From contig CM075103.1 in the NCBI GenBank assembly GCA_037576195.1, forward strand, positions 13,764,001-13,828,000: a stretch of 64,000 bases of DNA, given 5' to 3'. The stretch's first letter is position 1, and each line of letters begins with the position of its first letter. Under the pieces are notes generated by a model. The model did not search any database, was not told where the DNA came from, and saw only the letters and a list, made by a program, of their open reading frames with translations. This DNA is from Phytoseiulus persimilis (Eukaryota; Arthropoda; Arachnida; Mesostigmata; Phytoseiidae). This document shows positions 1-48,672 of this stretch, in pieces. The translations under genes were made by a program, and so were the position numbers.

Positions 1-27
1 GGCAGCTGTCCGGAAGCCTCCACAGAC

Positions 28-645: not shown

Positions 646-665
646 GTGGCGCCGCCTGGTGGGAC
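646..665 (-). promoter_or_regulatory. CTCF-like promoter element of C1
   Basis: Reads gtggcgccgcctggtgggac on the + strand. In transcription orientation it contains CCACCAGGCGGCGCC, one mismatch from the CTCF core. It lies 75 bp upstream of the C1 start at 571; a YY1-like AAAATGGCG surrounds the second in-frame ATG (563-565). Confidence 0.65.
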
Positions 666-931
666 CGGTGGAGATTTTTCGAATTGCGTCAAATTTGAAA
701 TCTCAATCCATATTCTCTCGCAGCGATACTCGATAGGGTCCGCGCGGGAGAGCCCGGTTATCGTCGGACAAAGAGTGATAATTACCCTGAATAACCGATG
801 ATACCTATGACAGGATGTCTTGTATTTGTGCCCGCTTTTTGTCGTGGGCTCGACACTCCATGCTCCTCTGAGCAGGAGAACGTTCCAAGATCCGTAAACT
901 AACTCGCCGTAGCTAGCGCTCATCCAATTAC

Positions 932-1727
932 CGCTGAGTATCACGGAGACGTTCTTCGAGATCCGCCCGAGAGCGTTTTCTGCTTCGCAACGGTAATCGC
1001 CCTTGTCTTCCGTGGTTACACTCTGTACCGTGATGACTCCTCTATCGAACGATAAGCGTGAATTTGGAACGATTTCCTGCTCGCCTTGAATGGAATTCCA
1101 ACCCTGAGCTTCCATCTTTCGTTATCCGAACGAATATCTCCCTCGTTCCGAACGGACTCACTGTGGAACACTCGCAGAGTTGGAGTCGGGTATCCAGCTG
1201 CAGCGCAGTCTATAGCTAAGACTTCGCCCGGTGCCACATTGAGCTCCCCCAGGACGCTCTTCTGCCAACGAGGAGCGAAATTCAACAACACCGGTACCGA
1301 GATGTGATCCGCGCCGTACATGTTCTTCGCGTTGCAAGTGTAGTTCCCCACGTGATCGACGGTGAGTTTTTCAATTTGGAGCACGTCCTGGAAGTCGTCC
1401 ATATGGGCTATTCTCACGCCCGGCAGGTCTCCGATCGGCTTTCCGTCTTTGTGCCAGACAAACGAGATCGGAGGGCTCCCAGAAGTAACTGCACACATGA
1501 CCGAGAGACGATTCCCCTCCGAGAGATCCTCCGGCACTTTGAATGGCACTATCGCTGGCCGTACTAGAAGTTGGACGAATCGAACATTGAAATTTCGCTT
1601 CGACAACTTCCCATTCCACTCCAGAATCAGAATGGAAGCGGACAGATCGGGAATCATGCTCACCTTGAGCCGCACAAACATCGCTGAGCAGCGACACAAA
1701 TGCTGTGACTACCAGGCAAAGGGCCAT
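932..1727 (-). CDS. sDscam cassette C2
   Basis: Three exons: signal complement(1664..1727), MALCLVVTAFVSLLSDVCAAQ, donor GTGAGC; exon 1 complement(1162..1563), acceptor TTCTAG, donor A|GTGAGT; exon 2 complement(932..1084), acceptor TTCAAG, donor GTAATT. The joins keep one frame (phase 1 throughout). Ig1 has SFVWHKDGKPIG and NYTCNAKNMYGAD; Ig2 ends DKGDYRCEAENALG and ILSG. C2 and C3 are close paralogues. An upstream ORF of eight codons (MAMASRAG, stop) precedes the leader. Confidence 0.85.
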
Positions 1728-1802
1728 TTCGATCACCGGATAGGCCTACCCAGCGCGGGACGCCATAGCCATTCTTGGGTTCGGCACTGGACAGCAGGAC
1801 CA

Positions 1803-1822
1803 GTGTGTCCCCCTGGCGGTAC
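1803..1822 (-). promoter_or_regulatory. CTCF-like promoter element of C2
   Basis: gtgtgtccccctggcggtac on the + strand, 76 bp upstream of the C2 start. The YY1-like AAGAATGGC (ATG at 1770-1772) is closer than usual, 31 bp away. Confidence 0.55.
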
Positions 1823-2159
1823 ATTCGAGTATCTGCTCGGTCGCCGTCGATTCGAAATTCAAGCGTTCACAGTTTGGGATGGAATCGGCGGAAATTATTC
1901 CCGGAAAAATCGTCAGGACTCTCGGTTTCCGAGCAGGTGGGACGAATTGTGAGACAGCTCCCTCAGCACAGTGGGAAGCTCGTGCGGCTCTGGAGAGCTT
2001 CCGAAAAATATTCGAGAAGCGAAATGAGCATGAGCTTTGTACGGTAAGTCTCTGATGCCCGGTGTCTAGTTCGACACGGGCGCCTGATCACGATTCTTCG
2101 CGCAGTGCGTATGGAAATTAGAATAACAGCTTTCCGAAGTTTGACACCGAGATATTCAC

Positions 2160-2974
2160 CGCTGAGCGCGACCGTCACAGTCTTGGAAATTTTCCCAAAT
2201 GAGTTCTCCGCCTCGCACAAATAGTCGCCTCGGTCGTCCACGACCACATCGTTCAATGTTAGCATGCCGTCGGCCAGATGAACGCGCTGATTCAACTCCA
2301 GTTCTTTCTCTCCTAAAACAGGATCCAGCGAGTCAATGAATTTGTTTTGAGCGCCTCCGAACTCTTTCGTGTCTCTCAGGGATCGTTCTTGGCACTCACC
2401 GTGCAGAATTCGTAGAGTTGGGCGCGGGTGACCCGTGCTCCTGCAATCAATCGACACCGCCTGGCCCGATACGAAGCTCTTCGATTCAACCATGTCGGCA
2501 CTGGACCAGCGAGGCGCGAAGCTCAGGAGGACAGGAACAGTTATGTGATCGGCACCGTACATGTTCTTGGCATTACAGGTGTAGTTGCCAACGTGGTCCC
2601 CGCTGAGCTTCTCAATCTGGAGGACATCTTGGAAATCGTCGATGTGATTCACTTTCAAACCGGGGAAATTCCCGATCGGTTTTCCGTCTTTGTGCCACAC
2701 AAACGAAATCGGTGGACTCCCAGATGTGACAGAACACATGATCGATAAGCGATTGCCTTCGGATAGGTTCTCTGGCACCTTCACGGGAACGATCGTGGGT
2801 CGAACTGAGAAGCGTCGGAGTTAGGGCTCGTTGCATGGGATCGACGCCGGCTTTCCAAATTCAAATCCGCATCGAATGATGCTGATGAGGGAAAACTTCC
2901 CAAGACTCACCCTGTGCAAGTGAAACAACATCTCGCCCAAATATGACCGCCGTGAACAAAACTTCCGCCAGCAT
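2160..2974 (-). CDS. sDscam cassette C3
   Basis: Signal exon complement(2911..2974) encodes MLAEVLFTAVIFGRDVVSLAQ with donor GTGAGT. Exon 1 is complement(2400..2804) (acceptor TTCTCAG, donor GTGAGT) and exon 2 complement(2160..2312) (acceptor TGTTTTAG, donor GTGAAT). Ig1 carries VPVKVPENLSEGNRLS and SFVWHKDGKPIGNFPG; Ig2 has DDRGDYLCEAENSFG. No indels or stops seen. Confidence 0.85.
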
Positions 2975-3051
2975 GGCAGGACAGATACCGAGCTCACTTT
3001 TGGCAGGACGCCATACTGCTCGACAGCACACTGAATCCAACCATGGAACCA

Positions 3052-3071
3052 CTAAGTCCCCCTGGTGGTAC
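3052..3071 (-). promoter_or_regulatory. CTCF-like promoter element of C3
   Basis: ctaagtccccctggtggtac on the + strand; the left four bases deviate from the array consensus. It is 78 bp from the start codon. No clear YY1-like partner was found. Confidence 0.5.
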
Positions 3072-3458
3072 AACTTGGAAACTCTGTGGATTTGAATTTT
3101 CGTCCAAGCAATGAAACATCCATGAGAATGATCGAACCGTTGCGATCTGTGTGGCTCTATTCGAGTTGATTCCCGAAGGGAAGATACATCAGGTGCAGTC
3201 TCTTCGAATCAACAGAGATTCGGCCGCCTGGGTCTTCGCCTCTTCACTCGACGAGCAGATCCTCTACGCAATGGAAACGCTCTGTCAGGGATTCCCGAAC
3301 ATATCGCACCTAACACGCTCCTGCATGAATGTCGAATCAAGCTGCGGGCCCTCTGGAAACATCCCCGAAAGGCTTCACAAGCAGGTTTGCCCATGACCAC
3401 TGGGATCACAGCAGTCATATTTCGACTCCTTCGTTGCCGACAAGGAATGAGCCAAGCG

Positions 3459-3677
3459 TTAGCCGAAGCGCTCTCGAGATCCTCCACCCGAGGTGGGAAG
3501 ATGCAAATAACTCTTCGAGGGATATTCGGAGCGTCGTTTCTGGCCACCATCCATCTCAGTACCACCCATAGACACAACTGAGACCCAACCAGATCAGAAA
3601 TACCAAACCCGCCTTGAGACGCATCGATGCGAATTCTTAAAACACCGGAAAAGTGGTTTGATGAGCACCTTATATAT
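3459..3677 (-). pseudogene. Possible small secreted-peptide ORF with TATA box, frame broken
   Basis: A TATATAAG box (3670-3677) lies 53 bp upstream of an ATG at 3624 that opens MRLKAGLVFLIWLGLSCVYG, a good signal peptide, but the frame stops after 22 residues (TGA at 3556-3558). One base off, a frame with a K-R-R site runs to ...SRERFG and a stop at 3459, the shape of an amidated RF-type peptide. A one-base shift would be needed to join the two, so this is a decayed gene, a base-calling error, or chance. It does not resemble the sDscam leaders and lacks their donor. Confidence 0.2.
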
Positions 3678-4025
3678 TGTTCGCTCTGAATGGGTAACTA
3701 TCGAAATGATCGTCGAGGAGTTTCTCAATTCGAAGTTCATCACGGAAGTCATCCAATCGGCAAATTTTCACCGCGGCGATGATTGGGAATCTGTCCGCTT
3801 AAGGGGAAATCCGAGATCTCCATGAGTGCGGTAATCTGCCCAACGTTGACATCGATGAACGAAGCAGCGCAAATTAGCGGAACCATTCTGTTTGTCTCGA
3901 CTCGAGCCCATGGAACCTCGTAGTGCAGAGATGAGTGGAGCGGTCAACGAGAACTCCCGCATCTACGCGATGGACAAACTGACAACGCCTCGACGCTCTG
4001 ATAACGTGGTCTCCGTACAGGACAG

Positions 4026-4045
4026 CTCATTCCCTCTAGCGGTAC
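4026..4045 (-). promoter_or_regulatory. Orphan CTCF-like promoter element
   Basis: ctcattccctctagcggtac on the + strand matches the right half of the C2/C3 elements. No Ig exon follows within 800 bp in the direction of transcription, so it probably marks a lost cassette. Confidence 0.4.
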
Positions 4046-4212
4046 ATTTCGGCAACTCTCGTCCATATGTACGATCCGGAGCTCAGTTCTGGATCCGTGA
4101 ACCGATTCGACAGAAAAGGTAGGAGCTGCTAGCTAAGTGGATAATTTTTGTTTTGGAATAGATCCCCGGCGATCAGTTTCTGACTGCCTCTCCTAATATC
4201 TACCAGATTTAC

Positions 4213-5077
4213 CACGCAATAGCAGGGTCATCATCCGAGTGACGCTACCCGAAGGATTGGATGCTTCACATTTGTATTGATCACCATCACTATTCGAAAT
4301 TCTCCTTATTATCAACTGCCCGTCATCGTCAACAGTCGGAGCCTTGATTTCCTTCTCGCCTGGAATTCAACTTGGTTTGAGAGTCTCGAACGGAGAAATC
4401 AGGCCGGAGCAGGCTCACAATGAGTCTCCTGAGGAAAGATCCGCACACGATCGACATGGAATTCGATGTTCAGATAAGTTCCTGCTCTGGAGCTCACCTT
4501 TGAAAAACTTCAGCGTAGGCTTCGGATGCCCCCGAGCCCTGCAGTCGAAAGTGAATGAGTCGCCAAGAACTCCGCTGACCGACTCCGGCGCTCTCTCGAT
4601 CACAAACTGTGGTTTCAGTTTGAGAACTATTTCCACCGCCATATGATCTGAACCAAACATGTTTTTCGCAGTACACGTGTAGTTCCCAATATGCGACGCC
4701 CCCAATTTCTCAATCTGGAGGTTGTCCTGATAGTCGTCAACATGAGCAAGCCTGATGTTGGGAAGATTCGTTATCGGAGACCCATCTTTGAGCCACGAGT
4801 ACGAGATAGGTGGTGTTCCGGACGAGACAGAGCACACTAGAGTGAGTCGTTTACCTCCCTCCAAATCGTTCAGCACTTTGAAAGGGGTGATTTCAGGCGG
4901 GGCTAGAACCGCAGAATCAGATCTTGTGAGCCAATGTTGGTGAATGATTCGCATTCAGGCTCCATTGATCGGTAATTCCACAAGAGAAACATTACCTTCA
5001 GCGTACACACATACAGCTTTTAGGAATAAAACCACTAGTAAAGCACTCATCGTATCGGAATGCAGCAAGGTAGCCAT
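4213..5077 (-). CDS. sDscam cassette C4
   Basis: Signal exon complement(4996..5077) starts at an ATG inside an AAAATGGCT element (MATLLHSDTMSALLVV...); an in-frame alternative start is 5050. Donor GTAATG. Exon 1 complement(4498..4902): acceptor TTCTAG, Ig1 with SYSWLKDGSPITN and NYTCTAKNMFGSD, donor GTGAGC. Exon 2 complement(4213..4359): acceptor TTCCAG, SDGDQYKCEASNPSG, ends LLLRG before GTAAAT. All joins are in frame. It is the last cassette with a separate leader exon. Confidence 0.85.
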
Positions 5078-5122
5078 TTTGTAAGCTCGCGGCTGTGCAG
5101 ACCCAGCCTCGTGAAGGTACGA

Positions 5123-5142
5123 GTGGCGCCCCCTGGCGGAAC
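5123..5142 (-). promoter_or_regulatory. CTCF-like promoter element of C4 (near-perfect core)
   Basis: gtggcgccccctggcggaac on the + strand; reversed it gives CCGCCAGGGGGCGCCA, an excellent CTCF core. It is 46 bp from the YY1-like ATG at 5075-5077. Confidence 0.75.
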
Positions 5143-5389
5143 AGAACGTAAGCCTCCGCTGCCTGTGCTTTTTTCGAAAAAACTGCCGTCGCAGGAACGC
5201 ATTTTGTCAAGATTCATTCAAACACCGGGATAATTCAGTGGGTTTCCGGAGGACGAGGAGCAATCGCCAAAACAATCAAAACCACGACTGTCATCGGGTG
5301 CCACCAGATGCGTGCTGGTCATCAAATATCGTCCCGGAACCGGGCTCAGGTGTCATCATAGGAAAGCCTTCTGCTCTTCCCCGAATTAC

Positions 5390-6093
5390 CGATCAGACTC
5401 AGCAGAAACTCGCGTTGAATATCGCCCATAGCGTTGGAGGCTTTACAGTAGAATCGTCCTTCATCTCCAAGATTGACATCACGAATCGTGACGAGGCCAT
5501 CTGTGACTGATATCCGAGCTCCGGGCTCCAGGAGAGTTTTCTCTGCAATACGAGGCTGATGAATCAACGTTGCTCGCAGCCAATCTGCACTCCCGATTGC
5601 TGCGCCCTCGAACCAGTGCAAACCTTACCTCGACGGATTTCGATAGTCGGTTTCGGATATCCCACAGCTGAGCAGTCCAAGCTCACGTTATGCCCAGGAA
5701 TAACATAAACTGTTCGTGACACATTAGAACTCCACTCAGGTGTGAACTTCAAGACAACTCGGACAGACATCTGATCCGACCCGTGAGAGTTTTCGCAGCG
5801 CACGTGTAATTCCCGAGATGCTCAGCAGTTAAACTGGGAATCAAGAGTTGTTCCTGATAATCATCCAAATGAACGATTTTCACAGTGGTACTCGAGGTGA
5901 GCAGGGTGTTGCCCTTCCTCCACGCGAACGATATCGGTAGGGTCCCAGTGAACACAGCACAGGTCACAGCGAGGCGTTGCCCTTCTTCCATGAAGTCGGG
6001 CAAACGAGCAGGCGTTATCTGAGGTGCCTGCGCGGCGTCTACAGACTCAAAAATGCCTGCCAGAAACACCACGAAGCATCGCGTCCACCTCAT
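5390..6093 (-). CDS. sDscam cassette C5 (one-base deletion in Ig1)
   Basis: Exon 1 complement(5629..6093) encodes leader MRWTRCFVVFLAGIFESVDA and Ig1 in one exon; donor GTAAGG. The NYTCAAKN-S-H-G-S-D stretch is split between frames because the A tract at 5790-5793 has four bases where other cassettes have five. Exon 2 complement(5390..5542): acceptor TTGCAG, EGRFYCKASNAMG, donor GTAATT. It is otherwise well preserved, so either a recent pseudogene or an assembly error. Confidence 0.7.
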
Positions 6094-6163
6094 GGTGAAA
6101 CTATCAACACCCAGGTGCGTCGGGTCCATCGGAGTTTGGCCTACTCGATATCTCGCAATACAT

Positions 6164-6183
6164 GTGGCTCCCCCTAGGGGGAC
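6164..6183 (-). promoter_or_regulatory. CTCF-like promoter element of C5
   Basis: gtggctccccctagggggac on the + strand, 71 bp upstream of the C5 start. No YY1-like ATG at the usual distance. Confidence 0.6.
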
Positions 6184-6479
6184 AAACCTCAAATTGGACG
6201 GAGACATCCCGCAATACTAATGGAGCGGACTCGGTGTAAGGAGTAAATTGAACGAAGTACGACGCAAGCGAACTTCAGCCGAGGTCAACAACGGGAATCA
6301 TCATCGATAGGTTCAGTCCCCATCAAGGCACAATACGTCATTTTCTAGAGGTAAAGCTACGCTCGGATATATCTGTCGCCTCCCGCTCTTGGTGTTCTCC
6401 CGAAAATCCTCCTAAACAGAGCTTTCTACTCTGAGCTTCGCTCTGTCGAATGATTGCATTGATTTGCAAGATGTATTAC

Positions 6480-7243
6480 CAGTCAATGCCAAAGTGACTA
6501 ATTTATGAACTTTGCCAACGGAGTTCGTTGCTTCGCACTCGAAAACGCCTCTGTCCTCGACGGACAAGCCCGAGATTTGCAGGACCCCCGTTCAGCAAGG
6601 CGTATCGTGAGGTCGGGGTGACTTCATTGCCACCTGAAAAAAGTGAGGGCCGCGTCAGAATGGGAATGTCTTGAAGATCAGCACGGAGGTGGCTTTCCGA
6701 AAATGGAAAGCAATGACTCGAGATAATCTCATGGGGAACGAAAGCGTCTTCAGTGCTGAGGAATCATGGATCGTCGAGAAAGCACCTACCTCTGAACATT
6801 TTCACGATTGCGGGCGGGTGTCCCTGAGCGCTGCAGTTCACAACAACCGAGTCTCCAGCGACTCCATTCACTGTTTGAGGGCTCGGCTGGAGCCAAGCCG
6901 GCTTGAGTTTCAACAATACTCCGACAGAGATTTGGTCTGATCCGAAAGCGTTCTTCACTGCACAGGTATAGTTTCCTATATGCATGGCCGATAATTTCAT
7001 AATCTGGAGAATTTCTTGGTAATCGTCGTTGTGCACGACTTTGATCCCTCCGTCCTGAGGAATCGGGACGCTATTCTTCCGCCACGAGAATGTCATGGGC
7101 AAACTCCCTTTTCGAACCGCGCACATCACAGCGAGTCTTTGTCCTTCCTCTAAATCGTCTGGGAGTCTCACAGGCACTATTTGGGGGACATTGGCATGTG
7201 CAAGGGGCAGCAATAAAGTCAGGATCACGATTCGAAATTCCAT
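6480..7243 (-). CDS. sDscam cassette C6 (frameshift in exon 2)
   Basis: Exon 1 complement(6790..7243) is open: leader MEFRIVILTLLLPLAHA, then VPQIVPVRLPDDLEEGQRL, FSWRKNSVP and NYTCAVKNAFGSD; donor AGAG|GTAGGT. Exon 2 complement(6480..6633), acceptor TTTTTTCAG, has a run of five G (6585-6589 on the C strand) where four keep the frame. After that point EDRGVFECEATNSVG continues one base off. Donor GTAATA. Confidence 0.7.
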
Positions 7244-7332
7244 GGCAGACGCTCAGGACAGGGAAGCTCTGAGAATTCTGTCGGTACAGCAATGGACGCC
7301 TCGAGCGGCAATATAAGGGTCACTAAGCACAG

Positions 7333-7352
7333 GTAGCTCCCCCTAGAGGGAC
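7333..7352 (-). promoter_or_regulatory. CTCF-like promoter element of C6
   Basis: gtagctccccctagagggac on the + strand; 90 bp from the start codon, the longest distance in the array, with no YY1-like partner. Confidence 0.55.
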
Positions 7353-8618
7353 AGACCCGAATTCAAATCGGAGCACACTTTCGAATTTCGGCGCGAAAGG
7401 TACTTGAAGCGCCCGGGATCCTCGATAAATACCAAGAGTGAGATCATAACCCGAATGATTGAGGCAAGTGGCCTGCTCCGATTTTAGAATTCCGTGGCGT
7501 TCTCCGGATATCGAAGGCCCAAAAGACAGCTCTCGAAAAGCATACACTCTTCTGTACTCCTCCAGAGCCCAGAGCCTGATCGGCGCACCTGAATTGTCTA
7601 CCATGTCTCGAGTTCGATCACCTCGTGATGGAGAAGCAGTTGCTGGCAGAAACACTTTTCCCGTCAATACAAGCGAGAGAGTTACGCTGTGAAACTTCGG
7701 ATTCACCGGGAGACATCTCTCAGAATTACGGATGAGATTGAATCGGCTAAGATGATCTCTGATAGGCTTGCGAGGGCAGGCGAGCTCTGTTCGAGGTTGA
7801 AACGGAGAACCGAGCGCAACTTGCTGCAGCATTCGCTTGTGTCCCGCTCCCAATGCTATATTCCTAATGTTAAGAATCCATTGATGTTGGATCCCCTCCT
7901 CTCTGAGAATAGATGACCGCCTGCCTCGATGAGATTTCTCGCCCCTCAGAACAGAAGGTCTTCCGCGACAGAGGATGCATGGGAGGAGGTAAAGTTCCTC
8001 ATGATCTCTCCTGAATTGGAATACGCCATGGAATATCCAGAATCTCTGGGATGGTGGCCGAAATTCTGATCGTTGGATCAGCGCAAAATTCAAGAGAGCT
8101 TTAATGAGAGATTTTCGGGTAGCTCGTCGATCACGGTCTCCATTATAGCCAGGTAAAATTTCCGGCCACATTTAGCTGCCGTTTTGATTCTACCAGATGG
8201 ACTCCGGAACAGCCGTACGCAGCGCCAAGCATCACCGCCGAAAACGTCGTTGGCGTCACGACTTGGCATTCTCCAGCGCCGAGATTTCTCGCGGCGCACG
8301 GCTCTGAGGACGGTTCAGTTCCATGTGGAACCGGGAATTTATACCATCGTCGATGCTAGATGTCCGACATGACCGAGGGGAGATATGAATTCAGAGACGA
8401 CTTAGACACAACCTTATAAAGGATCACGGGTCCCCTGCTGTTCATCCAGGAGTGTCTCTCTCTGTGTCTCTCCAGGAGGAGAAGGTCGGCGGGAAAGTCT
8501 CAGGAACTTCGCCATACATCATTCAGCCAAAGTGCCTCTCCAGGTCGCCCGTGTCCCCGAACGTCTGAATGTAGAGGATTCTTCTCAATTGTCAATGCCT
8601 TTCGGCGGAATCATGTAC
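7353..8618. other. Long spacer between C6 and C7
   Basis: No Ig-type exon and no promoter-like element recognised on either strand; the long open frame on the minus strand here has no domain I know. Confidence 0.4.
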
Positions 8619-9354
8619 CGGTCAGTGTGATGGAAACTGGTTTCCGTATAGAACCGAGAGTATTGGAGGCTTCGCAGGTGAATTCGCCTTTGTCTTGTGG
8701 CGAAATGGAATCGAACGGAGTAAACCGTCATCGATGGAAATTCGACTCGTTGGCACCAATACAACGTCTCTGCAAGAATGGATTTCGTGTACTCTCAAAG
8801 CACCTTTCGGATTCTAGACAATGCATCATAGGGACTCGATCCACAGAATGCTACTCTCCGTCGCAAGGCTCACCTCGGAGGATTTTCACGGCAGGTTTAG
8901 GATGACCCTCGGCACGACAGTCTACAGACGCTTTCTCGCCGAAGGTTGCACTTATCACGCTGAGAGTCGCGAGCCAACGAGGCTTAAACTTCAGAACTAC
9001 TGTCACACTGACTTGATCGGAACCGAAAGCATTCTTCGCTACGCATGTGTAGTTCCCCGTATGTTCCAAGCCAAGCTTCTGAATTTGCAAAGTTTCGTGG
9101 AAGTCATCGCGCGCGATGCGGACGGTGTCACTCGTCATCACTGCTGAGCCATCTTTGCTCCAGGAAAAGGCTATCGGAGGCGAGCCCTTGCGGATCCCGC
9201 AACTGAGAATGAGTCGTTGTCCCTCTTCGAGATCGTCGGATTGTTTGAGAGGAACAATTTGTGGGGCCGTTGCTCCCGAAGTCCGTATCGAAAACATCAC
9301 TAACACTAATAAGTTCAGCGAGAACGGAGACATGATTTCAAAGCGAGCCGCCAT
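8619..9354 (-). CDS. sDscam cassette C7 (exon 2 damaged)
   Basis: Exon 1 complement(8874..9354) is intact: start in AACATGGCGGC (MAARFEIMSPFSLNLLVLVM), Ig1 with IRKGSPPIAFSWSKDG and NYTCVAKNAFGSD, donor GTGAGC. Exon 2 complement(8619..8769) should give SRISIDDGLLR..., DKGEFTCEASNTLG and TLTG, but compared with its twin C8 one base is missing near its start and another near 8714. The frame is lost. Donor GTACAT. Confidence 0.65.
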
Positions 9355-9399
9355 GTTGGTGGCTTGGGGACCGGTTTTGTCATACACTTCGTGGTACTG

Positions 9400-9419
9400 G
9401 TGGAGCCCCCTAGTGGGAC
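9400..9419 (-). promoter_or_regulatory. CTCF-like promoter element of C7
   Basis: gtggagccccctagtgggac, identical to the C8 element; reversed it gives CCACTAGGGGGCTCC, close to the CTCF core. 46 bp from the start ATG (9352-9354). Confidence 0.7.
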
Positions 9420-10061
9420 AAGATAGAAACAGTTTCGATGTGCGAATTTTGAAAATTTTCTTCCCATCGTATCCCGGATGGATCTCATTTTCGGAATGTC
9501 CGGAGAATCCACTCCGGACGGAACCGGTCCCAGCGGTGTTTCACCGTTTCCGATGCCGAATATTACTATCGGCGTATCACGGGGAAATGTTTGGTCGGAG
9601 TCAAGGCTGCCGTGTTGGGATTATCTCTGATCCTCGACAGAACCGTCAGTGGTGATGAGACTGCATCAGGCTCAGCAACCAATTTACTCTTGCGTCGCCA
9701 AAAATCTTCCTCTCTTGGGCCTCTCGTCGATACGGGGCGTTTCCGTAGGAGATCCGGGAGAACTTCCATCCGCCGAGGATTCGGCGAAGATTCCGATGAA
9801 TCTCTCGCAGTAGAACAGCAGGGAAGTGCACGAAAATGGACATCGTGAAAACTGCACAGCCGCTTGGACCTCCGGAGTCAATTCTGAGCGGTCAGATAAA
9901 CAATGCGATAAACGGAGCCTCGAAATCGGAAGGACGGGTCGAAGAGACGCCGAAAGGGTAGCTGGTCTGGCTCACGAGCGCTCGAGAAGCAGCAATTGTG
10001 ATTTGTCAAACTCTGATGCCGATGATGAATTGAATATGAGACAAGTGGAACGTCGATATAC

Positions 10062-10786: not shown

Positions 10787-10830
10787 GTTGGTAGCTTGGG
10801 GTTAGTTCTGTCGTATTTTTCGAGACACAG

Positions 10831-39421: not shown

Positions 39422-39500
39422 GTTCGCTAGCGACTCAGCCCTTGTACTCCGCCATATTGACGCGCGCCCTGTGTAGGCGATTCGGATACCGGCGGTACTC

Positions 39501-39520
39501 GTGGCGCCCCCTTGTGGAAC
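39501..39520 (-). promoter_or_regulatory. CTCF-like promoter element of C27 (strong core)
   Basis: gtggcgcccccttgtggaac on the + strand; reversed it gives CCACAAGGGGGCGCCA. 46 bp from the YY1-like ATG (39,453-39,455). Confidence 0.75.
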
Positions 39521-40149
39521 AAAATGGCTTTACCGATGCGCTCCGCCAGATTCGAATGTTCGGAAGCCTCAATTCCATGATCACGTGGAACGTCTTCGAG
39601 TTCAGGCGTGAACACGTTCGAGTATCAACCACAGACATCCAGTTGAACCAGCGAGGCAAGAATTGGAATTATTCCCATGGTTTCGCTCCATCAGCGCTCG
39701 TACGCCGAATCCCTCGGGTAGTTATTCTGGATCTTTGCGAATTAGAGCCGGGAACAGCTCCATCACGAAAGCACTCGATCAGTGAATTTTCAAATGAGTT
39801 CCCGCAAAGCTCGATTCCATCGCGAGCGGGGACTCGGAGCTCCGAATTCTCCTAGAAGTAGCGCGAAGTCGTCGACAGTGCCTCTTTCAGCTCCTCAAGA
39901 GAGTGTCGACTTATTCGATGTCTCGGTCACTTTTCCAGGCGATACTTCCGATCCGACACCCTCAACTTGCGCGATTTCGTCGCTCCTCCCTGCACTGAAT
40001 CCACAGCGTGTCCCCAATCAGGTGAGGGCTGGGCCATTCGAGCGAATACTTCTCTCAACCTAAGATCGCTGCCTATGTCCAATTTCGAGATCGAAAAGAT
40101 GAGCTCGGAATCGGATCAATCTATAAATAATCTCGGCAGTCCACATTAC

Positions 40150-40899
40150 CCGTGAGAGAAATTTTCACAGCTTTCTCAATACTCCCGAGAGTGTTAGTAG
40201 CCTTGCACTTCATCCAACCCGCATCTTCCGAATCGATGCGTGATATATTTAAGATGCCGTCGCTGATGATGTAACCTCCTCTTGAATGGATCTCTTTCTC
40301 ATCTGAAATGAGCGGTCCGTTGAAAACACGAACACGAGTTCACAGATTGGATTCAGGCCTCGATGGCCACGTCTCTCAAACTCACGCTTGTAATGACGTA
40401 CGACCGGGGCAGGGAAACCCGTCGCTGCACAATTCACTGTGATCGAATGGCCTGCCACTGCATCGATGATGGCATCTGTCTTCCCCAACACCCATTCTGG
40501 CGGTGATTTGATTACGAGTGGAACCGACACTTGGTCCGATCCGTGGATGTTACGAGCACTGCACGAGTAGTTGCCGGAATGATCGGCCCTTAGTTTCAGA
40601 ATTTGCAGGGTTTCCTGATAGTCCTCATGTGACACTTTTACATCGTCTCTCAACACTACGGGCACGTTATTCTTCCTCCAGGCGAAGGAAATCGGCTGAG
40701 TGCCCTGCAGAGCTGCACACAGAATTGCGAGTCTCTGTCCGAGTTCCAGATTTTCGGGTACTTTCAAGGGTGCCAAGTGTGGAGGAGACGCGTTGACACG
40801 CTCGTGCATCAACGAGAAGAGCATCCACATGATATGGAAAACGATCATGGTGCTATACGACCTCTCGTTGGGCACATGACAAACTACCCTAGCTGCCAT
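40150..40899 (-). CDS. sDscam cassette C28
   Basis: Exon 1 complement(40386..40899): start in AAAATGGCAGC, leader with MIVFHIMWMLFSLM, Ig1 LELGQRLAILCAALQG, SFAWRKNNVPVV, DYQETLQI, NYSCSARNIHGSD; donor AAGC|GTGAGT, so the junction residue is His, not Gly. Exon 2 complement(40150..40302): acceptor CATTTCAG, DAGWMKCKATNTLG (Met replaces the usual Tyr before Cys), SLTG, donor GTAATG. Confidence 0.86.
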
Positions 40900-40944
40900 T
40901 TTAGACCCGCCTCAGCGTGCCTTCCTGGCCAAGACTCGATGAAC

Positions 40945-40964
40945 GTGGCGCCCCCTAGTGGGAC
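40945..40964 (-). promoter_or_regulatory. CTCF-like promoter element of C28 (perfect core)
   Basis: gtggcgccccctagtgggac on the + strand; reversed it gives CCACTAGGGGGCGCCA, a full match to the CTCF consensus. 46 bp from the start ATG. Confidence 0.8.
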
Positions 40965-41149
40965 CAGGACGAGACCTCCAGGAGTCCCAAAATTCGAAAC
41001 GAACTGCCATCGACCCCTCAATGCGTTCAAATTATGGAATCGCGCTCTGAATATGTGGTGTCGTCTTCCGGAGTCTAGCATTCTGATTTTCGACTGTAAC
41101 ACCAAATACCAGTTCCCATGGTTGCCTCAGCTAACTCGAATGAATTAAC

Positions 41150-41615
41150 CTCTGCTGAGCGTTATTTCCGGAGTCGGGTGACCACGCGCCCTGCAGTCGA
41201 TCATGACTTTTGCATGACGATGGAGCTCTCGATAATTTTGGAAGCGATGGTGTCTCTTTGCGACTTCGGTTCGAATTCCATCAACACTAGTATCGACATG
41301 TGGTCACTTCCGGAAGCGTTCTTCACGACGTACTTGTGGTTGGCCACGTGGTCATGATTTGTGATTGCTCCTGGTACTCATCCGTTTGGAAGAGCTTCAC
41401 AACCGATGACCGAACGAGGGAGAGATCGTTCTTGAGCCACCAGAAGATCAGGGGCTGATTTCCTCCCAGGACGGAGCTTTCAATGGCTTTTCGCTGTGTT
41501 TTTTTTGAGGTCGTCCGGCACTCCGATCGGGCTGATGCCAGACGCAACACCTATACAGTATCGTCACACGCAGCGAGAACCGCGAGAGTGACAACGAACA
41601 ATCGGATCGGCGTCA
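41150..41615 (-). pseudogene. Relic sDscam cassette psiC
   Basis: Starts MTPIRLFVVTLAVLAACDD (signal-like, related to the KMTPP leaders of C29 and C30) and stops after 21 residues. Further on, shifted frames read WWLKNDLSLVRS, DEYQEQSQI and VMIDCRARGHPTPEITL. The NYTC region has lost bases. No exon 2 and no promoter element were found for it. Confidence 0.7.
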
Positions 41616-41790
41616 TTTCTGACATCGCAGCGATTTTGAGCTTCGTGTGGAATTTGAATTCTTCGACGAAAGAGGTAACGGAATAGATCGTTCTCGACGA
41701 GAATTCCATAGTTTTGAGTGCGTCTCAAAGAGATCAATGTGCGACCAATGCATAGCAAAAAGCAGCCCGAGCTGTTCCATGCAGTTTTAC

Positions 41791-42900
41791 CAGTTAACAG
41801 AACTCGGACGGTTTTGGACAGTACGCCTCGGGAGTTTGAAGCTTGGCAGTGATATTCAGCCGCATCAGACTGTTCGACTTCATTGATCTCGAGGAGACCG
41901 CCAATGACATGGAGTCTTTTCGATGAGACAACCTGGACGTCGCCTGCAAGATGAGTTTCTTTTAGTGCGAGATTTGGGATTTTCGACTTCGGGGATTCTC
42001 GGCCCAAGAAAGTGTTTGATAGATGCTTCTAGTCACATTCAAAAATCGTCAACTCTGGGTTGAAGTCATTCTAATTTCGGGGATGGAAGATCCTATTCGT
42101 GAGAGGAAGCAAAGACCCTCGTCCCCCATTCTAAACTATTCTGCGAAATCGACGATCTCGTAATCAGACAGATGTTCCGCACATAGGCTGGGTGATCGAT
42201 GTCGGAAAATGAAACGATTCATTCCGCAGCTGAGACACTCTGATCGGCGAATTCGGAAAAAAATGTGGGCTTGTGACTACCGAGAACCGACACTTCCGTG
42301 GAAAAACTCGGCTTTCGAGAACGGGAGGACTTCCTTCAGCTTTATGAGGCGAATATACAGATTCAAAGGCGGAGCGGAAAGATCGGAGGAAGGAACTGCG
42401 GATTTACCTTTCTTGATGAGGATCGTCGGCTCTGGGTGGCCGGTAGCTCTGCAATTTACAATCACCGCTTCCCCAGAAGTTGCTTGAATAAGATGCGTCG
42501 CGCTCGATTCGATCCATTGTGGTTGGAACTCCATCAAAACTTGAACGGTCATGTGGTCAGACCCATAGGCATTCTTCACAACACATGTATAGTTCCCGAC
42601 ATGGGTTGAGGAAAGTTTGAGGAACACCAACTGCTCCTGGTACTCATCCATTTGGGCAACTTTAACTTCCGCGGAAGAGGTCAGGGGTGTGCCATTTTTC
42701 CTCCAAGCGAACGAGAGCGGTTGACTCCCTTCCCGAGCGGCGCACATTATGGCGAGCCGCTGACCTTCCCTAAGATCATCGGGGCTCGTCACCGAATTGA
42801 TCCTTGGTGCAGTCCCAGCGAGGATGCCCTCGAAAAACACACAAATTCCGAGACACCGTAGGAGCATCTCCGGCGGCGTCATTTTTGAAGTTGCTGCCAT
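41791..42900 (-). CDS. sDscam cassette C29
   Basis: Exon 1 complement(42408..42900): start in AAGATGGCAGC (MAATSKMTPPEMLLRCLGIC), LREGQRLAIMCAAREG, SFAWRKNGTPLT, DEYQEQLVF, NYTCVVKNAYGSD; donor AAAG|GTAAAT. Exon 2 complement(41791..41943): acceptor CTTGCAG, DAAEYHCQASNSRG, LLTG, donor GTAAAA. Group C with C30 and psiC (LREGQRLAIMC, AYGSDH). Confidence 0.87.
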
Positions 42901-42943
42901 CTTGGCGCTAGCTTTTGGGCTTTTCCGTTCCACATAGATACAC

Positions 42944-42963
42944 GTGGCTCCGTCTGGTGGTAC
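42944..42963 (-). promoter_or_regulatory. CTCF-like promoter element of C29
   Basis: gtggctccgtctggtggtac on the + strand; a CC to GT change in the core run. 44 bp from the start ATG. Confidence 0.6.
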
Positions 42964-43121
42964 TATATCGGAATGATTTCACGACTTCTATCTGAATATG
43001 ACCGCGGAAATAGGCATTTCCGAGTTTATCTCGCAGGAATCGATTCAAGTCAGAGTTTCTCTCTTCCATGAACCAGTGAACCAGGTTAGACGATTAAGAG
43101 GGGGTCTCACGACTTAATTAC

Positions 43122-44049
43122 CCTTCAAAGTAACTTTGAAAGACTTCGATACTGAGCCGATGGAGTTGGATGCCTCACAGGAATAGACTCCTCGGTCCGA
43201 GCTGCTCACGTTGCCGATCTCCAGGAGGCCGTCGACGAAAGATATCCGATCGGACAGTTCTAATCGATCTTTCTCTGAAATAGCAAAAAGAGATGTCATC
43301 AATGATATGTGTGTCCGCTCAGGATCATCGCATACTCGCTCGGAAATTATGGGGAACGCCCTGGAAGTTGAATCTTCCATTCATTAAACTTCGCGAAGTA
43401 TCAAGACGCTTCGATATCGGAACAATATTGCGGAGGTCAGGAGTAGGACGGCAACGAATGAGTGGGGCAGCGCCGAATGAGTTCATGGCATTGCTTTTTT
43501 CTCAAGCTGCTTTTCAGGCGTCTACGACGAGTTATTTCGCCAGCTATCGACCTACTTGCCTTTTCTGATGCGAACCTCCGGCTCAGGGTGGCCCTTCGAC
43601 CTACAGTCGAGGACGGCTCTGCTCCCGGCTGGACTCTCAATCGATGTCCAGTTTTCAGGTGAGAGCCATTCGGGTCGGAGCTTCATCAGAACTCGGACAG
43701 AAATGTGATCCGATCCGTAGGCATTCTTCACTTCGCACGTGTAGTTCCCGACATGATCAGTGGACAGCTTCGAAATCTGAAGTTGCTCCAGGTATTCATC
43801 TGACTGCCGGATTTTCAGGTCTGATCCGGGGACGAGCGGAACGCCGTTCCTCCTCCAAGAGAACGAGAGAGGTTGACTTCCTTCGAGCACTGCGCACATT
43901 ATAGCCAAACGTTGTCCTTCCCTGAGGTCATCCGAGATCTTTGTAGGCCCTATGCGAGGGGCTTCCCCCGCGATGACCGATTTTATGCACGAAGAAACGA
44001 CAACAGCTAACAACAGCCTGGGCGGCGTCATTTTGAAATGAGAAGCCAT
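43122..44049 (-). CDS. sDscam cassette C30 (GC-AG intron)
   Basis: Exon 1 complement(43560..44049): start in AAGATGGCTTC (MASHFKMTPPRLLLAVVVSS), LREGQRLAIMCAVLEG, SFSWRRNGVPLV, DEYLEQLQI, NYTCEVKNAYGSD. It ends AAAG followed by GCAAGT, a GC donor with otherwise ideal consensus; the GT form is used by the sister cassettes. Exon 2 complement(43122..43274): acceptor CTATTTCAG, DRGVYSCEASNSIG, TLKG, donor GTAATT. Frame is kept. Confidence 0.86.
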
Positions 44050-44087
44050 CTTGCTACAGTCATTGTGATCACCAATGGACGGTACAC

Positions 44088-44107
44088 GTGCCGCCCCCTA
44101 GCGGGAC
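44088..44107 (-). promoter_or_regulatory. CTCF-like promoter element of C30 (perfect core)
   Basis: gtgccgccccctagcgggac on the + strand; reversed it gives CCGCTAGGGGGCGGC. 39 bp from the ATG, the shortest spacing. Confidence 0.75.
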
Positions 44108-44471
44108 CCGGCGGAAAGCGGTTTACTGTTAAGAGCACTGCGAAACTATCTGCAAAGGGTCTTCCGACCGGAACGAATAACAAAATCCCAGCGTTTCATC
44201 AGTGATAATCACAAGGTAGAATACGTTCTCGGAGGCGCTATCCGAAACACATCCACATACTCTGAAGCCCGCGGCCACCCAGGATTTTCTCTGGGGGTAA
44301 GTTGAAGGTTTCTAAACTATTCATTCTCCAGCCGTGGCCCAGAGCACGAGAGTACGAACCCCGGAGCAGGACAAAAATTATGTTATGTATTAACCCGTAT
44401 CGTACCGAGTGCTACTGGTCTGAATATGAGAAGACCCCAAGCACACGAAAGGTGTATTCTTGGCTTATTAC

Positions 44472-45308
44472 CGGTGAGTGAAAGCCTGACAGTTCTCTCT
44501 GTTGAATTGATCTCATTAGACGCTTCACAGTTGTAGGATCCAGCGTCCGATGACTGAACGTTCGAAATCTCAACGTAACCATTAACCACACGGATCCTTT
44601 CCGAGTTCGACACATCGATTTTCCCTGTGAAGGAATGTTGGTTATTTCTGCTGTTCTGGGAATCGCGTGCGAATAGAGCAAGAATTAACAAGGGTATCGA
44701 TTCCATGGACCATGTCGATATTCATCTTGAAGCGAGATCTCTATTTTGGTCGACGGTTCAGCGAGCATGATCACAAGAAATATCAGGAAGACCACAATCT
44801 CTTCCAGGTCATGCCCGCGATGCTCACCCTTCAGCACGTGCGTAGTAGCTCCGGGGAACGCCGATGCGCGACAGTCTATGACAACAGTTTCTCCCGCCAC
44901 ACTTCTGACCTCCGACTCGTTGGAAATCCATTCAGGGCCGAATTTCAGATTGACGGACACGCTCATTTGGTCCGAACCGAAGCGATTCCGCGCTGAGCAA
45001 GTGTAGTTGGCAATATGCTCAGCACTGAGTTTGTCGATTTGCAGCTGATCCTGATAGTCGTCAGAATGAACGATTCTGATACTCGAGGAGTTCAGAGGGG
45101 CGTTGTTCTTCCGCCATGAGAAAGAAATCGGGGGACTCCCCTTCACGACGGCACAGACGATGATGAGTCTCTGCCCTGCTTCGAGAGGGTCCGGAAGTTT
45201 CATCTGAGCAATTTGAGGTGGAAATAAAACTGAACCAAGTGCCTCACAGGACAGAATGGTCGTGAGTGCCAGCACAGTCGAAAACATGATTCCACTGGGA
45301 GAAGCCAT
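44472..45308 (-). CDS. sDscam cassette C31
   Basis: Exon 1 complement(44828..45308): MASPSGIMFSTVLALTTILS leader, LEAGQRLIIVCAVVKG, SFSWRKNNAPLN, DDYQDQLQI, NYTCSARNRFGSD; donor AAGG|GTGAGC. Exon 2 complement(44472..44624): acceptor CTTCACAG, DAGSYNCEASNEIN, SLTG, donor GTAATA. Intact. Confidence 0.87.
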
Positions 45309-45354
45309 TTTGCAACCGCCATAAGCTTGGGCATCTCCCAGCTCAGCAGTGAAG

Positions 45355-45374
45355 GTGGCGCCCTCCCGTGGGAC
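45355..45374 (-). promoter_or_regulatory. CTCF-like promoter element of C31
   Basis: gtggcgccctcccgtgggac on the + strand; keeps the CTCF-type GAGGGCGCC. 47 bp from the start ATG. Confidence 0.65.
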
Positions 45375-46477
45375 AACTCACAAACTTTCGTCTCGCGGGT
45401 GTCTTTGTGGAGAATTGAAAAGCTCGCTGGTGTTCCCTCGAGAAGAGGATCTGCGATGCAGGACGGTCGACATAGTGGAATGCACGCGAGAACTCCGAAC
45501 GGATCATTGTGTGGCGAACGAGCCACCCAGATGTCGTAGAAGGATAGGCTAGGAGATGAAACCTGACGATCTCAGAGGCATTGGCGGCCAGCAGTGGTCC
45601 GCAGCAGACTCCCCATCATCTGCGTAAGAATTGTGCCAAGAGTAGAATCATCCCAAGTTCTCGCGAATCATGCGTGACGCCAGTCTTTGAGCTGAGCTCT
45701 GGTGTTTGGGCCACGTTCGGCTGATATTTCCATTCCACTCTGTACCTCCATGAATAGACGGAATATCTTTTCGGCCAACATTGACCAGCGCAGACGATTT
45801 TGAAGTGGTTTCAAAATTCGACGGAGTTTACGGTGTTGATCGCCTTGTGCTCGAGCTCCTCAGAGAGCATTCGGCATCTATTTCGTAATTATTCGATGAC
45901 TCAGGCAGGAGGAGCCAAGCGGTAAGTTGTCGATTTTTGATCCGCTCAGAAAAGAAATCCAGGACGACGAGTCAAATCCGGATCAAGGATCAACCATCGT
46001 CGATCTCCCGATAGATGTCGCTTCGCCTGAGTCGTCGTACAGGGCTCACTATTGGCATGAGCAGAAGACTGCGTGCCGAGTCTTGAACGAAAAAGTCATG
46101 CAGAGCTACTCACGCCCCTCAACAACAAACTCCCGCGAGGAAACAGTGTCGGCGGTGACGACTGTCCCTCCTGATACCCAAATCTTTACAGTTTGGAATG
46201 GTGCCCCGAAGCGCACGAAAACAGAATTCTAGGTTGACCTTGGAAAGGTTGAGGTGCTGGGCTTTGAGGGTAGGGTAGCCAGCCTCGGAAGAATTCCAGC
46301 AATAGCAAGTTGCTCTCACTATTGAATTCATCGAGAGCTGTACTGTTGCCCGGAACAATGCGGCAGCTTTGACTGTTCATTCATACAGAATATTCTGATT
46401 CGAATCCTCAAAATTGTTAATCTTTCAAAGCACTGACGATCGGATATGTCTCCACAGCTTTTTAATATTCTGATTAC
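45375..46477. other. 1.1-kb spacer between C31 and C32
   Basis: Nothing recognised. A short stretch near 46.25-46.35 kb reads GYPTLKA on the minus strand, faintly like the end of an Ig2 first half, but too little remains to call a relic. Confidence 0.35.
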
Positions 46478-47274
46478 CCGTCAGTGAAACTCTGGTGAAT
46501 TTCGAGATGGATCCCACAGAGTTCACAGCCTCACACATGTAGGTTCCGGCGTGCTCTACCTTCACCGCTTTGATTTGGAGGACACCATCACGAGCGGGTA
46601 TTTCCTCGAGATCTGAGTGCCGAGTCCCCACTGGAATGAACGTTCGGCTCGAATGTCAACTCAACCGATAAATGTAATCAGCACAAGGCCCAGGAATTCT
46701 TGGAGGCACTCCCGAAATTCTGAGTTTGAGCTCCACGGAGCGTCTCAGCGGGCCTCACATGAAACACCCGAGAAGAGAAGAGAGATGTGTCCGACTAACC
46801 TTTCGGTCGAGTGAATTTAACGATGGGCTCGGGATGACCTTCAGCTTTGCAATTGATTTGGATATCCGAATCAGCGACAGCGACGATGGAAGTCATGTTT
46901 TGAGAGGAGACCCATCTAGGCTTATGCTTCAACAATACTCGAACAGACATCTGATCGGAGCCGAAAGAATTCTTCGCGTTGCAAGTGAAGTCGCCCACGT
47001 AGTCCACATCGAGTTTGAGTATTTGGAGAGTTTCCTCGTAGTCCCCATTGTGACTGATTTTCACAGAATCACTTGGCACAACGAGCTGATTGTCTTTTCG
47101 CCATTGGAACTCAATGGGTGGAGTTCCTTTTTGCACAGCACAAAGAATGCTCAGTCGCTGTCCCTCTTCCAGATTTTCAGGCAGGCGTATGGGCGATATT
47201 TGTGGGGGTTGAACGCTGTACACCGAACTTATAAGTGCCAAAAGAATGCATGAGCGGCGAATCATATCCGTCAT
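46478..47274 (-). CDS. sDscam cassette C32
   Basis: Exon 1 complement(46800..47274): MTDMIRRSCILLALISSVYS leader, LEEGQRLSILCAVQKG, EFQWRKDNQLVV, DYEETLQI, DFTCNAKNSFGSD (Phe for Tyr); ends R-P-K-G with donor GTTAGT. Exon 2 complement(46478..46612), 135 nt, shorter than the usual 153: acceptor CACTCAG, HAGTYMCEAVNSVG, SLTG, donor GTAATC. A six-codon upstream ORF (MAALFK) starts in AAGATGGCCGCC. Confidence 0.85.
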
Positions 47275-47361
47275 TGAGACGCCGTCTCTCAACTATTTGA
47301 ACAAGGCGGCCATCTTGATCACGCCGAGCGCTCTCTTTCGGCATTGTATAGAGCAGTTCCC

Positions 47362-47381
47362 GTGGCTCCCCCTGGAGGGAC
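47362..47381 (-). promoter_or_regulatory. CTCF-like promoter element of C32
   Basis: gtggctccccctggagggac on the + strand, 49 bp from the YY1-like ATG (47,311-47,313). Confidence 0.65.
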
Positions 47382-47647
47382 CATCTATAAACCAATCCTC
47401 GGGATATTTTTCGAATAAAATACAACCTGCCGTCTCGCTGTCCGACAGCGTCAACTTGCAAACCTGAGTCCTGATTTATTATTGGACCTCTCATGTGAAG
47501 CCGAACGAAGCCCCGATCCGAAGCGAGAGCTCGATGCTCTCCAGAGGAAATCCGAGTTAACCCCTGTATCAAATCATGAGAACCGTTTTCCCCCTCTAGC
47601 GGCCCCGTCGAGCCACGATTGTCCATTCGCATTTTTCATACCCTCAC

Positions 47648-48550
47648 CTGAGAGCTGAAGAGTGATCGATTTGGCTATGGATCCCATGGCGTTTGTTGCA
47701 TTACAAGTGTATATCCCAGCATCTTCGGACTTCACAGGGTCAATGATGAATTCTGTCGGATTCAGACTTTCCGAAATCGGACGCCACGGGTCTTTTCCTG
47801 AAATCCCGGAGTAAGAAAGTAGACGTCACTATATCCGGAACTCACAAACGAATTCATGGAAGCCTGGCAAGTTGTCCTTCCCCGTCATTGTCGTCGGAGC
47901 AATCGAGTCGCATGAAGCTGCAATCTCGCTAAACTGGGATTTGGATAGCCCAACAGTTTTCTCCGGATGCCCCCTCACACCTGTTATGGGAGACGATCCT
48001 GCGGGCCAAGTCCCGGAATCCTCACGACAGCTCATGCCGTTAAACTCAAGCGCGACGGAACTCAACCAATTTCAGGTTGCTCACCTCTTCGTACTGTAAC
48101 AGAAGGTCTGGGATGACCCGCGGCCGCACACTTCAGGGAGACTTTCCCGCCTGCGACTCCCGATACAGACGTGTCGTCTGAGATCCAAGACGGTGGAAAA
48201 TTCATGATGACTTGCACACCGATCTGATCCGATCCGTAAGGATTCTTGGTTGAGCAGGTATAGTTCCCCACGTGCGAAGACGTAAGGTTGAGGATCTGTA
48301 GGGTCTCCTGGTAATCGTCGTTGTGTGAAATTCTGATGATCTCGCTTTGATTCACTAAACCTCCGTCTTTCCTCCATTGGAAAGTTATGGGCTGCGTCCC
48401 TTTGCGAACTGAACACACAATGGCCAATCTCTGACCGACTTCCAAATCGTCGGACAGTTTCACAGGCACGATCTGAGGGGCGGTATTGGATCTGATGACC
48501 CGAATCAGTGTCGCAACCAGAAGAACACGCATCGTCTGTTCCACTATCAT
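47648..48550 (-). CDS. sDscam cassette C33 (5'-most of the array)
   Basis: Exon 1 complement(48085..48550): MIVEQTMRVLLVATLIRVIR leader, LEVGQRLAIVCSVRKG, TFQWRKDGGLVN, DDYQETLQI, NYTCSTKNPYGSD; donor AGAG|GTGAGC. Exon 2 complement(47648..47797): acceptor GATTTCAG, DAGIYTCNATNAMG, LQLSG, donor GTGAGG. A four-codon upstream ORF (MACF) starts in AAGATGGCG. No further cassette lies upstream before the TMBIM gene. Confidence 0.86.
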
Positions 48551-48652
48551 TGCGCTGATGCAACCCGTGACCAAACCAGGGACAAGATATTTTCAAAAGC
48601 ACGCCATCTTGGTGCCGCCGTGAGCTTCCGATCATACAGCTGCGTAGTACAC

Positions 48653-48672
48653 GTGCTGCCGTCTGGTGGGAC
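48653..48672 (-). promoter_or_regulatory. CTCF-like promoter element of C33
   Basis: gtgctgccgtctggtgggac on the + strand; reversed it gives CCACCAGACGGCAGC, close to the alternative CTCF core ending GGCAG. 46 bp from the YY1-like ATG (48,605-48,607). Confidence 0.65.

Follow-up and report, generated by a model that had tools for sequence, protein, structure and literature searches.

A conserved, probably CTCF-binding element upstream of every variable cassette in an sDscam-beta-type array of the mite Phytoseiulus persimilis

We analyzed a 64,000-nt window of contig C3 of the Phytoseiulus persimilis genome (C3:13764001-13828000), in which tandem immunoglobulin (Ig) cassettes run along the minus strand, each preceded by a short element that resembles a binding site of CTCF; the genome scanned with it comprises 181 Mb in 127 contigs. 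A single block on C3 holds 38 first-exon matches (33 inside the window, 5 left of it), and the elements of the successive cassettes are spaced 1.0-3.0 kb apart. Pfam recognizes Ig domains in one cassette exon and fn3 plus FN3_DSCAM in one constant piece, while the PDB neighbors of one cassette exon include chains of Down Syndrome Cell Adhesion Molecules, the top match being titin. Open frames for constant Ig, fibronectin type III (FNIII) and transmembrane (TM) exons are found at C3:13754480-13756576. As read from the open frames, the array follows the sDscam-beta plan described for chelicerates (PMC4835542, PMC5775551), namely tandem 5' two-Ig cassettes and then constant Ig, FNIII and TM exons. 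These sequence features identify the locus as a 5' cassette array of the chelicerate sDscam-beta type, encoded on the minus strand. Its subtype is inferred to be beta2-like from the number of cassettes, as Metaseiulus occidentalis is reported to possess 33 similar cassettes in sDscam-beta2, 21 in beta1 and 62 in alpha (PMC5775551).

A search of the window with the pattern GTGGCTCCCCCTNNNGGGAC, allowing up to 3 mismatches, recovered 32 matches, all on one strand (+ for this pattern), against 0.09 expected from shuffles. When examined cassette by cassette, a site was present in 33 of 33 cassettes in the window, including one that holds a TGA, with the sites at 3052 and 48653 being 5-mismatch matches; together with the five cassettes beyond the window, 38 of 38 have it immediately upstream, oriented in the direction of transcription. 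This bears out the first-pass annotation of this DNA, which had reported the element before all 33 cassettes and always in the same orientation, although its count of two relics with the element rises to three (29337, 32480 and a weak site at 4018). In the TGA-holding cassette, the single TGA is in the first Ig exon (window 33836-34237) and the promoter element at 34391 is still intact.

In transcription orientation the 34 sites, one per cassette in the window plus the 29337 relic, have the consensus GTCCC(A/G)CNAGGGGG(A/C)GCCAC. Position 14 of the core is A in 24 of these and C in 10, in agreement with the earlier observation that the cores mostly have A for the C in GGCGC apart from four near-perfect CTCF cores; the latter, presumably those at 5123, 39501, 40945 and 44088, score 14.1-18.3 bits with the human CTCF matrix MA0139.1. 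Two further informative stretches flank the core, RNTTC at positions -11 to -7 and GTAYYG at +22 to +27; farther out, information is low except in scattered weaker columns, mainly at +44 to +71. The conserved footprint, initially described as a 20-bp element, hence extends over ~39 bp in three parts: a 5' RNTTC module, the 20-bp core and a 3' GTAYYG module. A 39-bp matrix trained on the 34 sites exceeds 8 bits at 41 places in 104 kb of C3, all of them on the minus strand and none on the plus strand, against a mean of 0.2 matches per 104 kb in five mononucleotide shuffles. Beyond the 34 training sites, the other seven places are the five held-out cassettes on the left side (31.3, 25.4, 25.3, 15.6 and 12.7 bits) and the weak relics at 4018 and 32480. 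The elements share, on average, a pairwise identity of 0.80 over the core and 0.59 over the 3' module, whereas three blocks of flanking sequence have 0.27, 0.29 and 0.26. Because the surroundings have lost all likeness while the element has been kept, the element is under strong constraint rather than a product of mere copying.

The strict form of the motif (GTGGCTCCCCCTNNNGGGAC type, up to 2 mismatches) occurs 57 times genome-wide, 29 times in the C3 array and 28 times elsewhere, the latter being at the level of a reversed-pattern control (29). Therefore, the strict form is specific to the C3 locus, and the possibility that the motif is equally common at all promoters, raised at the outset as a potential refutation, is not borne out. 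The pattern GTNCCRCNAGGGGGCGCCAC with up to 2 mismatches gave 56 matches (29 in the C3 array and 27 elsewhere; control 11), and exact GGMGCCACNNGTAYYG gave 27 (12 in the C3 array, 6 in a second array on contig C2 and 9 elsewhere; control 7). The 3' module was good in one, fair in another and lacking in four of the six outside core sites that were looked at.

The second array, on a different chromosome at C2:44.27-44.30 Mb, is strongly diverged, with 27-37% identity to the query exon; its 26 elements take the form TGGCCGATGGATGGCGCCACNNGTAYCR and without exception point in the direction of transcription. These comprise 25 from a 9-mismatch scan and one, the first, recovered with the C3 matrix, and were counted for the array as a whole; a plus match at 44274413 and the sole minus match were dropped, as both have 9 mismatches and lie inside a coding frame. 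The first element, TTACCACCAGGTGGAGCTA, attains 20.9 bits with the human matrix. When the modules learned on C3 were applied to the C2 elements, the 5' module ranked 1 of 50 offsets and the 3' module 1 of 70. Here too, mean pairwise identity is high in the core (0.81) and the 3' module (0.68) against 0.30, 0.26 and 0.27 in the flanking blocks. A third array at C2:48.63-48.67 Mb, whose name as sDscam-alpha-like is inferred, showed no such element in 20 kb with 19 Ig exons, where the best core reached 6.6 bits and the best match to the human matrix 11.4. An exploratory motif search at the promoters of this array brought up a different, TAGCGCCGTAGCCTCG-like element, which exceeds 8 bits in 16 of 17 and had a search objective of 146 versus 101 on shuffled sequence.

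We then compared the element with known CTCF sites. Its core has the same register as MA0139.1, and the CTCF core is quoted as CCASYAGRKGGCRS in PMC6746451. Above 12 bits, the human matrix finds 18 sites in transcription orientation versus 1 against it in 104 kb of C3, and 14 versus 0 in 30 kb of C2, where a Markov model predicts 2.1 and 0.9, respectively, on both strands together. Those on C3 are 17 array elements and one non-element at window position 59353, so that 17 of 41 C3 elements and 14 of 26 C2 elements pass this threshold, many sites deviating at one or more positions. The column correlation between element and human matrix is 0.537, a value reached by 4 of 500 column shuffles. Furthermore, the consensus CCACCAGRKGGCGC with up to 1 mismatch occurs 378 times genome-wide against 173 in the control, and sites outside the arrays picked by this consensus alone were used to examine the flanks. 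The sample was the first 100 listed, i.e. all 35 exact sites and 65 one-mismatch sites from contig C1, of which 94 (32 exact, 62 one-mismatch) were kept after 6 near-duplicate flanks were dropped. At these 94 sites the 5' module of the array reaches its highest score at the very offset that it has in the array (z 3.9; first among 50 offsets), and it also leads in the exact and the one-mismatch subsets taken separately. The presence of the 5' module at the same offset in outside CTCF-consensus sites points to the same protein, and the array element accordingly shares two parts of its footprint with the CTCF-consensus sites elsewhere in the genome while having a part of its own.

The first-pass annotation had made its proposal dependent on a CTCF gene, and a protein search yielded one outstanding match, on contig C4, with 57% identity in its best piece and most recognition residues kept. 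Three pieces of this gene each have human CTCF (7w1m_H) as their best PDB match (1.1e-65, 6.9e-46 and 1.7e-46), and the gene has 11 fingers, with finger 3 out of frame, conserved DNA contacts and an N-terminal YxF. Recognition positions (-1, 2, 3 and 6) were read by hand from alignments: fingers 3, 4 and 5 equal those of human CTCF, and finger 7 has R,T,D,I versus human R,S,D,V. By the same hand-read alignments R339, K365, Q418 and R448, which are reported as DNA contacts of CTCF (PMC10094706), are kept. The mite segment DISVYEFDEG aligns with human DVSVYDFEEE, thereby retaining, as YEF, the Y226 and F228 of the YDF reported as the cohesin-binding motif of human CTCF (PMC11968269). The same protein search returned 249 C2H2 matches in the genome. 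A large block of C2H2 zinc-finger frames, with open frames of up to 4504 codons, is located at C3:21.186-21.207 Mb.

The elements are frequently accompanied by a YY1-like site. On C3, (A/C)A(A/G/T)ATGGC is found at 26 of 34 elements, 55-97 bp past the start of the core (median 62; 1.8 expected), and on C2 the reverse type, GCCATNTT, is found at 23 of 26 elements at 54-80 bp (1.8 expected). The genome encodes a YY1 with 93-94% identity to the human fingers. The notion that this motif is a mere start codon was rejected on account of an early stop in some cassettes (13459, 21653) and its turned orientation in C2. At the 3' end of the C2 array, shortly before the constant Ig frame, lies an inverted copy of the element (CCGCCGATAGATGGCACCACATGTACG, C2:44301461-44301479) with the 3' module present and no YY1-like neighbor, which by its sequence is a candidate convergent anchor. 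An exact canonical site in reverse orientation at C2:44335686, ~30 kb past the TM frame, may be due to chance.

Based on these observations, we propose that the mite's own CTCF binds every one of these elements, each at an alternative sDscam-beta promoter, a reading to which we assign a probability of about 0.6. The elements are probably CTCF sites, and directional looping at the array is plausible. CTCF would occupy the elements, the forward sites facing the constant exons would stop cohesin there, and CTCF together with cohesin would carry the chosen promoter to a shared downstream element, such that CTCF/YY1 occupancy might set which cassette is expressed. In the best explanation available, the elements would work like the promoter sites of the protocadherins without being related to them by descent. 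More doubtful, and put forward tentatively, is the broader proposal that a promoter choice directed by CTCF and cohesin arose independently in mites, with YY1 as its fixed partner and with promoter sites facing an inverted element copy where the variable region ends, as in C2; that such a system "evolved twice" is offered as a hypothesis. If true, two very distant animal groups would have reached the same way of picking one promoter from many. An element that stands at the promoters of two arrays, with none in the part of the alpha-like array that was read, would also offer a direct and cheap handle on promoter choice among tens.

Several results weigh against this interpretation. The majority of the C3 elements stay below 12 bits with the human matrix, and the cores depart from the consensus, 24 of 34 having A instead of C at position 14 and most C2 elements having G instead of A at position 8. 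In the flank analysis, the second batch taken alone is weaker (5' module rank 1, z 2.0), and a single reverse-strand position is close behind the 5' module among the one-mismatch sites (-2.28 versus -2.13). A lone T at -9, seen in 42 of 94 outside sites overall and 32 of 57 in the first batch, was not repeated in the second (11 of 39). The 3' GTAYYG module was not found at the canonical sites (rank 13 of 70), so another factor may bind part of the element. On the protein side, finger 6 has Q,N,S,A versus human Q,G,T,M, a change at three of four positions, and finger 3 is one base out of frame in this assembly, be it an error, a variant or a true lesion. The YY1-like patterns, for their part, were picked after the sequences had been inspected. 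Orientation is weak evidence for directional looping because tandem duplication alone keeps it; the C2 array helps a little because the YY1-like site has turned there while the CTCF-like element has not. The main gap is the convergent partner of the C3 array: no convergent element above chance was found in the 30 kb downstream of its constant exons, and the best opposite-strand core on C3 (14.7 bits, C3:13762448) lies inside the array and has none of the outer modules. Thus, of the earlier suggestion of CTCF and directional looping, the identification of CTCF survives the gene, matrix, flank and control-level tests, whereas the looping is left with an orientation that says little by itself and with no C3 partner found in those 30 kb.

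These gaps lend weight to the possibility that CTCF binds as a promoter-proximal insulator or activator separating neighboring cassettes, with the orientation merely inherited and no directional loop. Duplication alone would be expected to produce the orientation, the C3 array lacks a convergent partner in 30 kb, and the YY1-like site, where present, is 55-97 bp off, as is typical of promoter spacing. Yet the mite CTCF retains the cohesin-binding YxF, the C2 elements have kept their orientation though the YY1-like site turned round, and the C2 array has at its 3' end an inverted copy that lacks a YY1-like site; we consider this account unlikely, if worth keeping in view. Less probable still is that another multi-finger protein recognizes a CTCF-resembling element specific to the sDscam-beta promoters. 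The control-level count of the strict motif outside the array (28 versus 29), the missing 3' module at canonical sites and the very many C2H2 matches (249) would suit such a protein, but against it are the 5' module at the same offset in CTCF-consensus sites across the genome, the human matrix register and the conserved CTCF contact residues; moreover, a locus-specific CTCF sub-consensus is already on record at Igh (PMC6746451).

We give very little credence to the element being a general core-promoter part or the leftover identity of recent cassette copies, even though its distance from the downstream first Ig exon varies little between cassettes. Leftover duplication identity was rejected in view of flanks at background identity (0.26-0.30), and a general promoter part in view of the strict motif being at control level elsewhere in the genome and the lack of the element in 20 kb of the sDscam-alpha-like array. 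The positions of the elements in the window are collected in Table 1.

Table 1. Cassettes, CTCF-like cores and exemplary YY1-like sites in the 64,000-nt window
Feature	Position	Strand	Basis
sDscam-beta-type variable cassettes	1..48672	-	33 first Ig exons; 5 more cassettes leftward, last at C3:13757083
CTCF-like core, cassette	646..665	-	39-bp matrix 26.9 bits
CTCF-like core, cassette	1803..1822	-	39-bp matrix 25.6 bits
CTCF-like core, cassette, 5 mismatches	3052..3071	-	39-bp matrix 25.3 bits
Weak relic site without recognized first Ig exon	4026..4045	-	39-mer starts 4018; 15.4 bits; outside training set
CTCF-like core, cassette, GGCGC type	5123..5142	-	human CTCF matrix 16.6 bits
CTCF-like core, cassette	6164..6183	-	pattern, cassette check, 39-bp matrix
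CTCF-like core, cassette	7333..7352	-	pattern, cassette check, 39-bp matrix
CTCF-like core, cassette	9400..9419	-	pattern, cassette check, 39-bp matrix
CTCF-like core, cassette	10831..10850	-	pattern, cassette check, 39-bp matrix
CTCF-like core, cassette	12207..12226	-	pattern, cassette check, 39-bp matrix
CTCF-like core, cassette	13459..13478	-	pattern, cassette check, 39-bp matrix
CTCF-like core, cassette	14864..14883	-	pattern, cassette check, 39-bp matrix
CTCF-like core, cassette	16448..16467	-	pattern, cassette check, 39-bp matrix
CTCF-like core, cassette	17603..17622	-	pattern, cassette check, 39-bp matrix
CTCF-like core, cassette	18767..18786	-	pattern, cassette check, 39-bp matrix
CTCF-like core, cassette	20224..20243	-	pattern, cassette check, 39-bp matrix
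CTCF-like core, cassette	21653..21672	-	pattern, cassette check, 39-bp matrix
CTCF-like core, cassette	22670..22689	-	pattern, cassette check, 39-bp matrix
CTCF-like core, cassette	23766..23785	-	pattern, cassette check, 39-bp matrix
CTCF-like core, cassette	25171..25190	-	pattern, cassette check, 39-bp matrix
CTCF-like core, cassette	26350..26369	-	pattern, cassette check, 39-bp matrix
CTCF-like core, cassette	28561..28580	-	pattern, cassette check, 39-bp matrix
CTCF-like core, relic, no first Ig exon recognized	29337..29356	-	39-bp matrix 30.2 bits
CTCF-like core, cassette	31357..31376	-	pattern, cassette check, 39-bp matrix
Weak relic site	32488..32507	-	39-mer starts 32480; 11.7 bits; outside training set
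CTCF-like core, cassette with TGA in first Ig exon	34391..34410	-	pattern, cassette check, 39-bp matrix
CTCF-like core, cassette	35627..35646	-	pattern, cassette check, 39-bp matrix
CTCF-like core, cassette	36853..36872	-	pattern, cassette check, 39-bp matrix
CTCF-like core, cassette	38088..38107	-	pattern, cassette check, 39-bp matrix
CTCF-like core, cassette, GGCGC type	39501..39520	-	human CTCF matrix 18.2 bits
CTCF-like core, cassette, GGCGC type	40945..40964	-	human CTCF matrix 18.3 bits
CTCF-like core, cassette	42944..42963	-	pattern, cassette check, 39-bp matrix
CTCF-like core, cassette, GGCGG type	44088..44107	-	human CTCF matrix 14.1 bits
CTCF-like core, cassette	45355..45374	-	pattern, cassette check, 39-bp matrix
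CTCF-like core, cassette	47362..47381	-	pattern, cassette check, 39-bp matrix
CTCF-like core, 5'-most cassette, 5 mismatches	48653..48672	-	39-bp matrix 28.7 bits
YY1-like site (AARATGGC type), example	14815..14822	-	pattern scan
YY1-like site, second example	40895..40902	-	pattern scan

Beyond the 5' end of the array are two reading frames that we take to be histone H3 (window 60546-60998 and 63258-63785), and a minus-strand frame at 50193-50756 presumably belongs with the multi-pass TMBIM/Bax-inhibitor-type proteins, which it resembles. Downstream of the sDscam gene, C3:13743972-13744430 and 13737870-13738334 encode two similar small, probably secreted proteins (MLRL...HPKC.PEDFGAD).

Among known systems, the sDscam promoters of Mesobuthus martensii and Metaseiulus occidentalis share both gene family and array plan with the C3 array. 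Promoters were predicted before the cassettes and reporter-tested for the two sDscam-beta6 cassettes (PMC4835542), and, unlike what we see on C3, the portions of the chelicerate accounts drawn on here (PMC4835542, PMC5775551) describe no CTCF or YY1 element at them. The main sDscam papers name CTCF only in one reference title; subscription literature was outside our scope and no claim of priority is made. For the dispersed sDscam clusters, a mode of regulation other than the protocadherin one has been suggested (PMC5775551, section 13). The CTCF sites of the Igh VH domain are comparable to the mite array in being many, in one orientation, of a locus-specific sub-consensus and far better conserved than their surroundings (PMC6746451), but there they serve a locus of V(D)J recombination, with one site class at a fixed distance from recombination signals, whereas the mite sites are at promoters. 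The protocadherin clusters come closest in layout: most of their promoters are reported to have a forward CTCF-type site facing the shared constant exons (PMC7087399, PMC11968269), the relative orientation that the first-pass annotation had likewise drawn attention to, and like the mite array they are tandem alternative promoters of a cell-recognition gene. Reverse-oriented enhancer sites are known in the protocadherin clusters and were not found for the C3 array in the 30 kb downstream of its constant exons. The protocadherins are, moreover, of the cadherin family, whereas the mite array belongs to the unrelated Ig family, and the YY1-like partner at fixed spacing is a feature of the mite array that sets it apart from the protocadherins.

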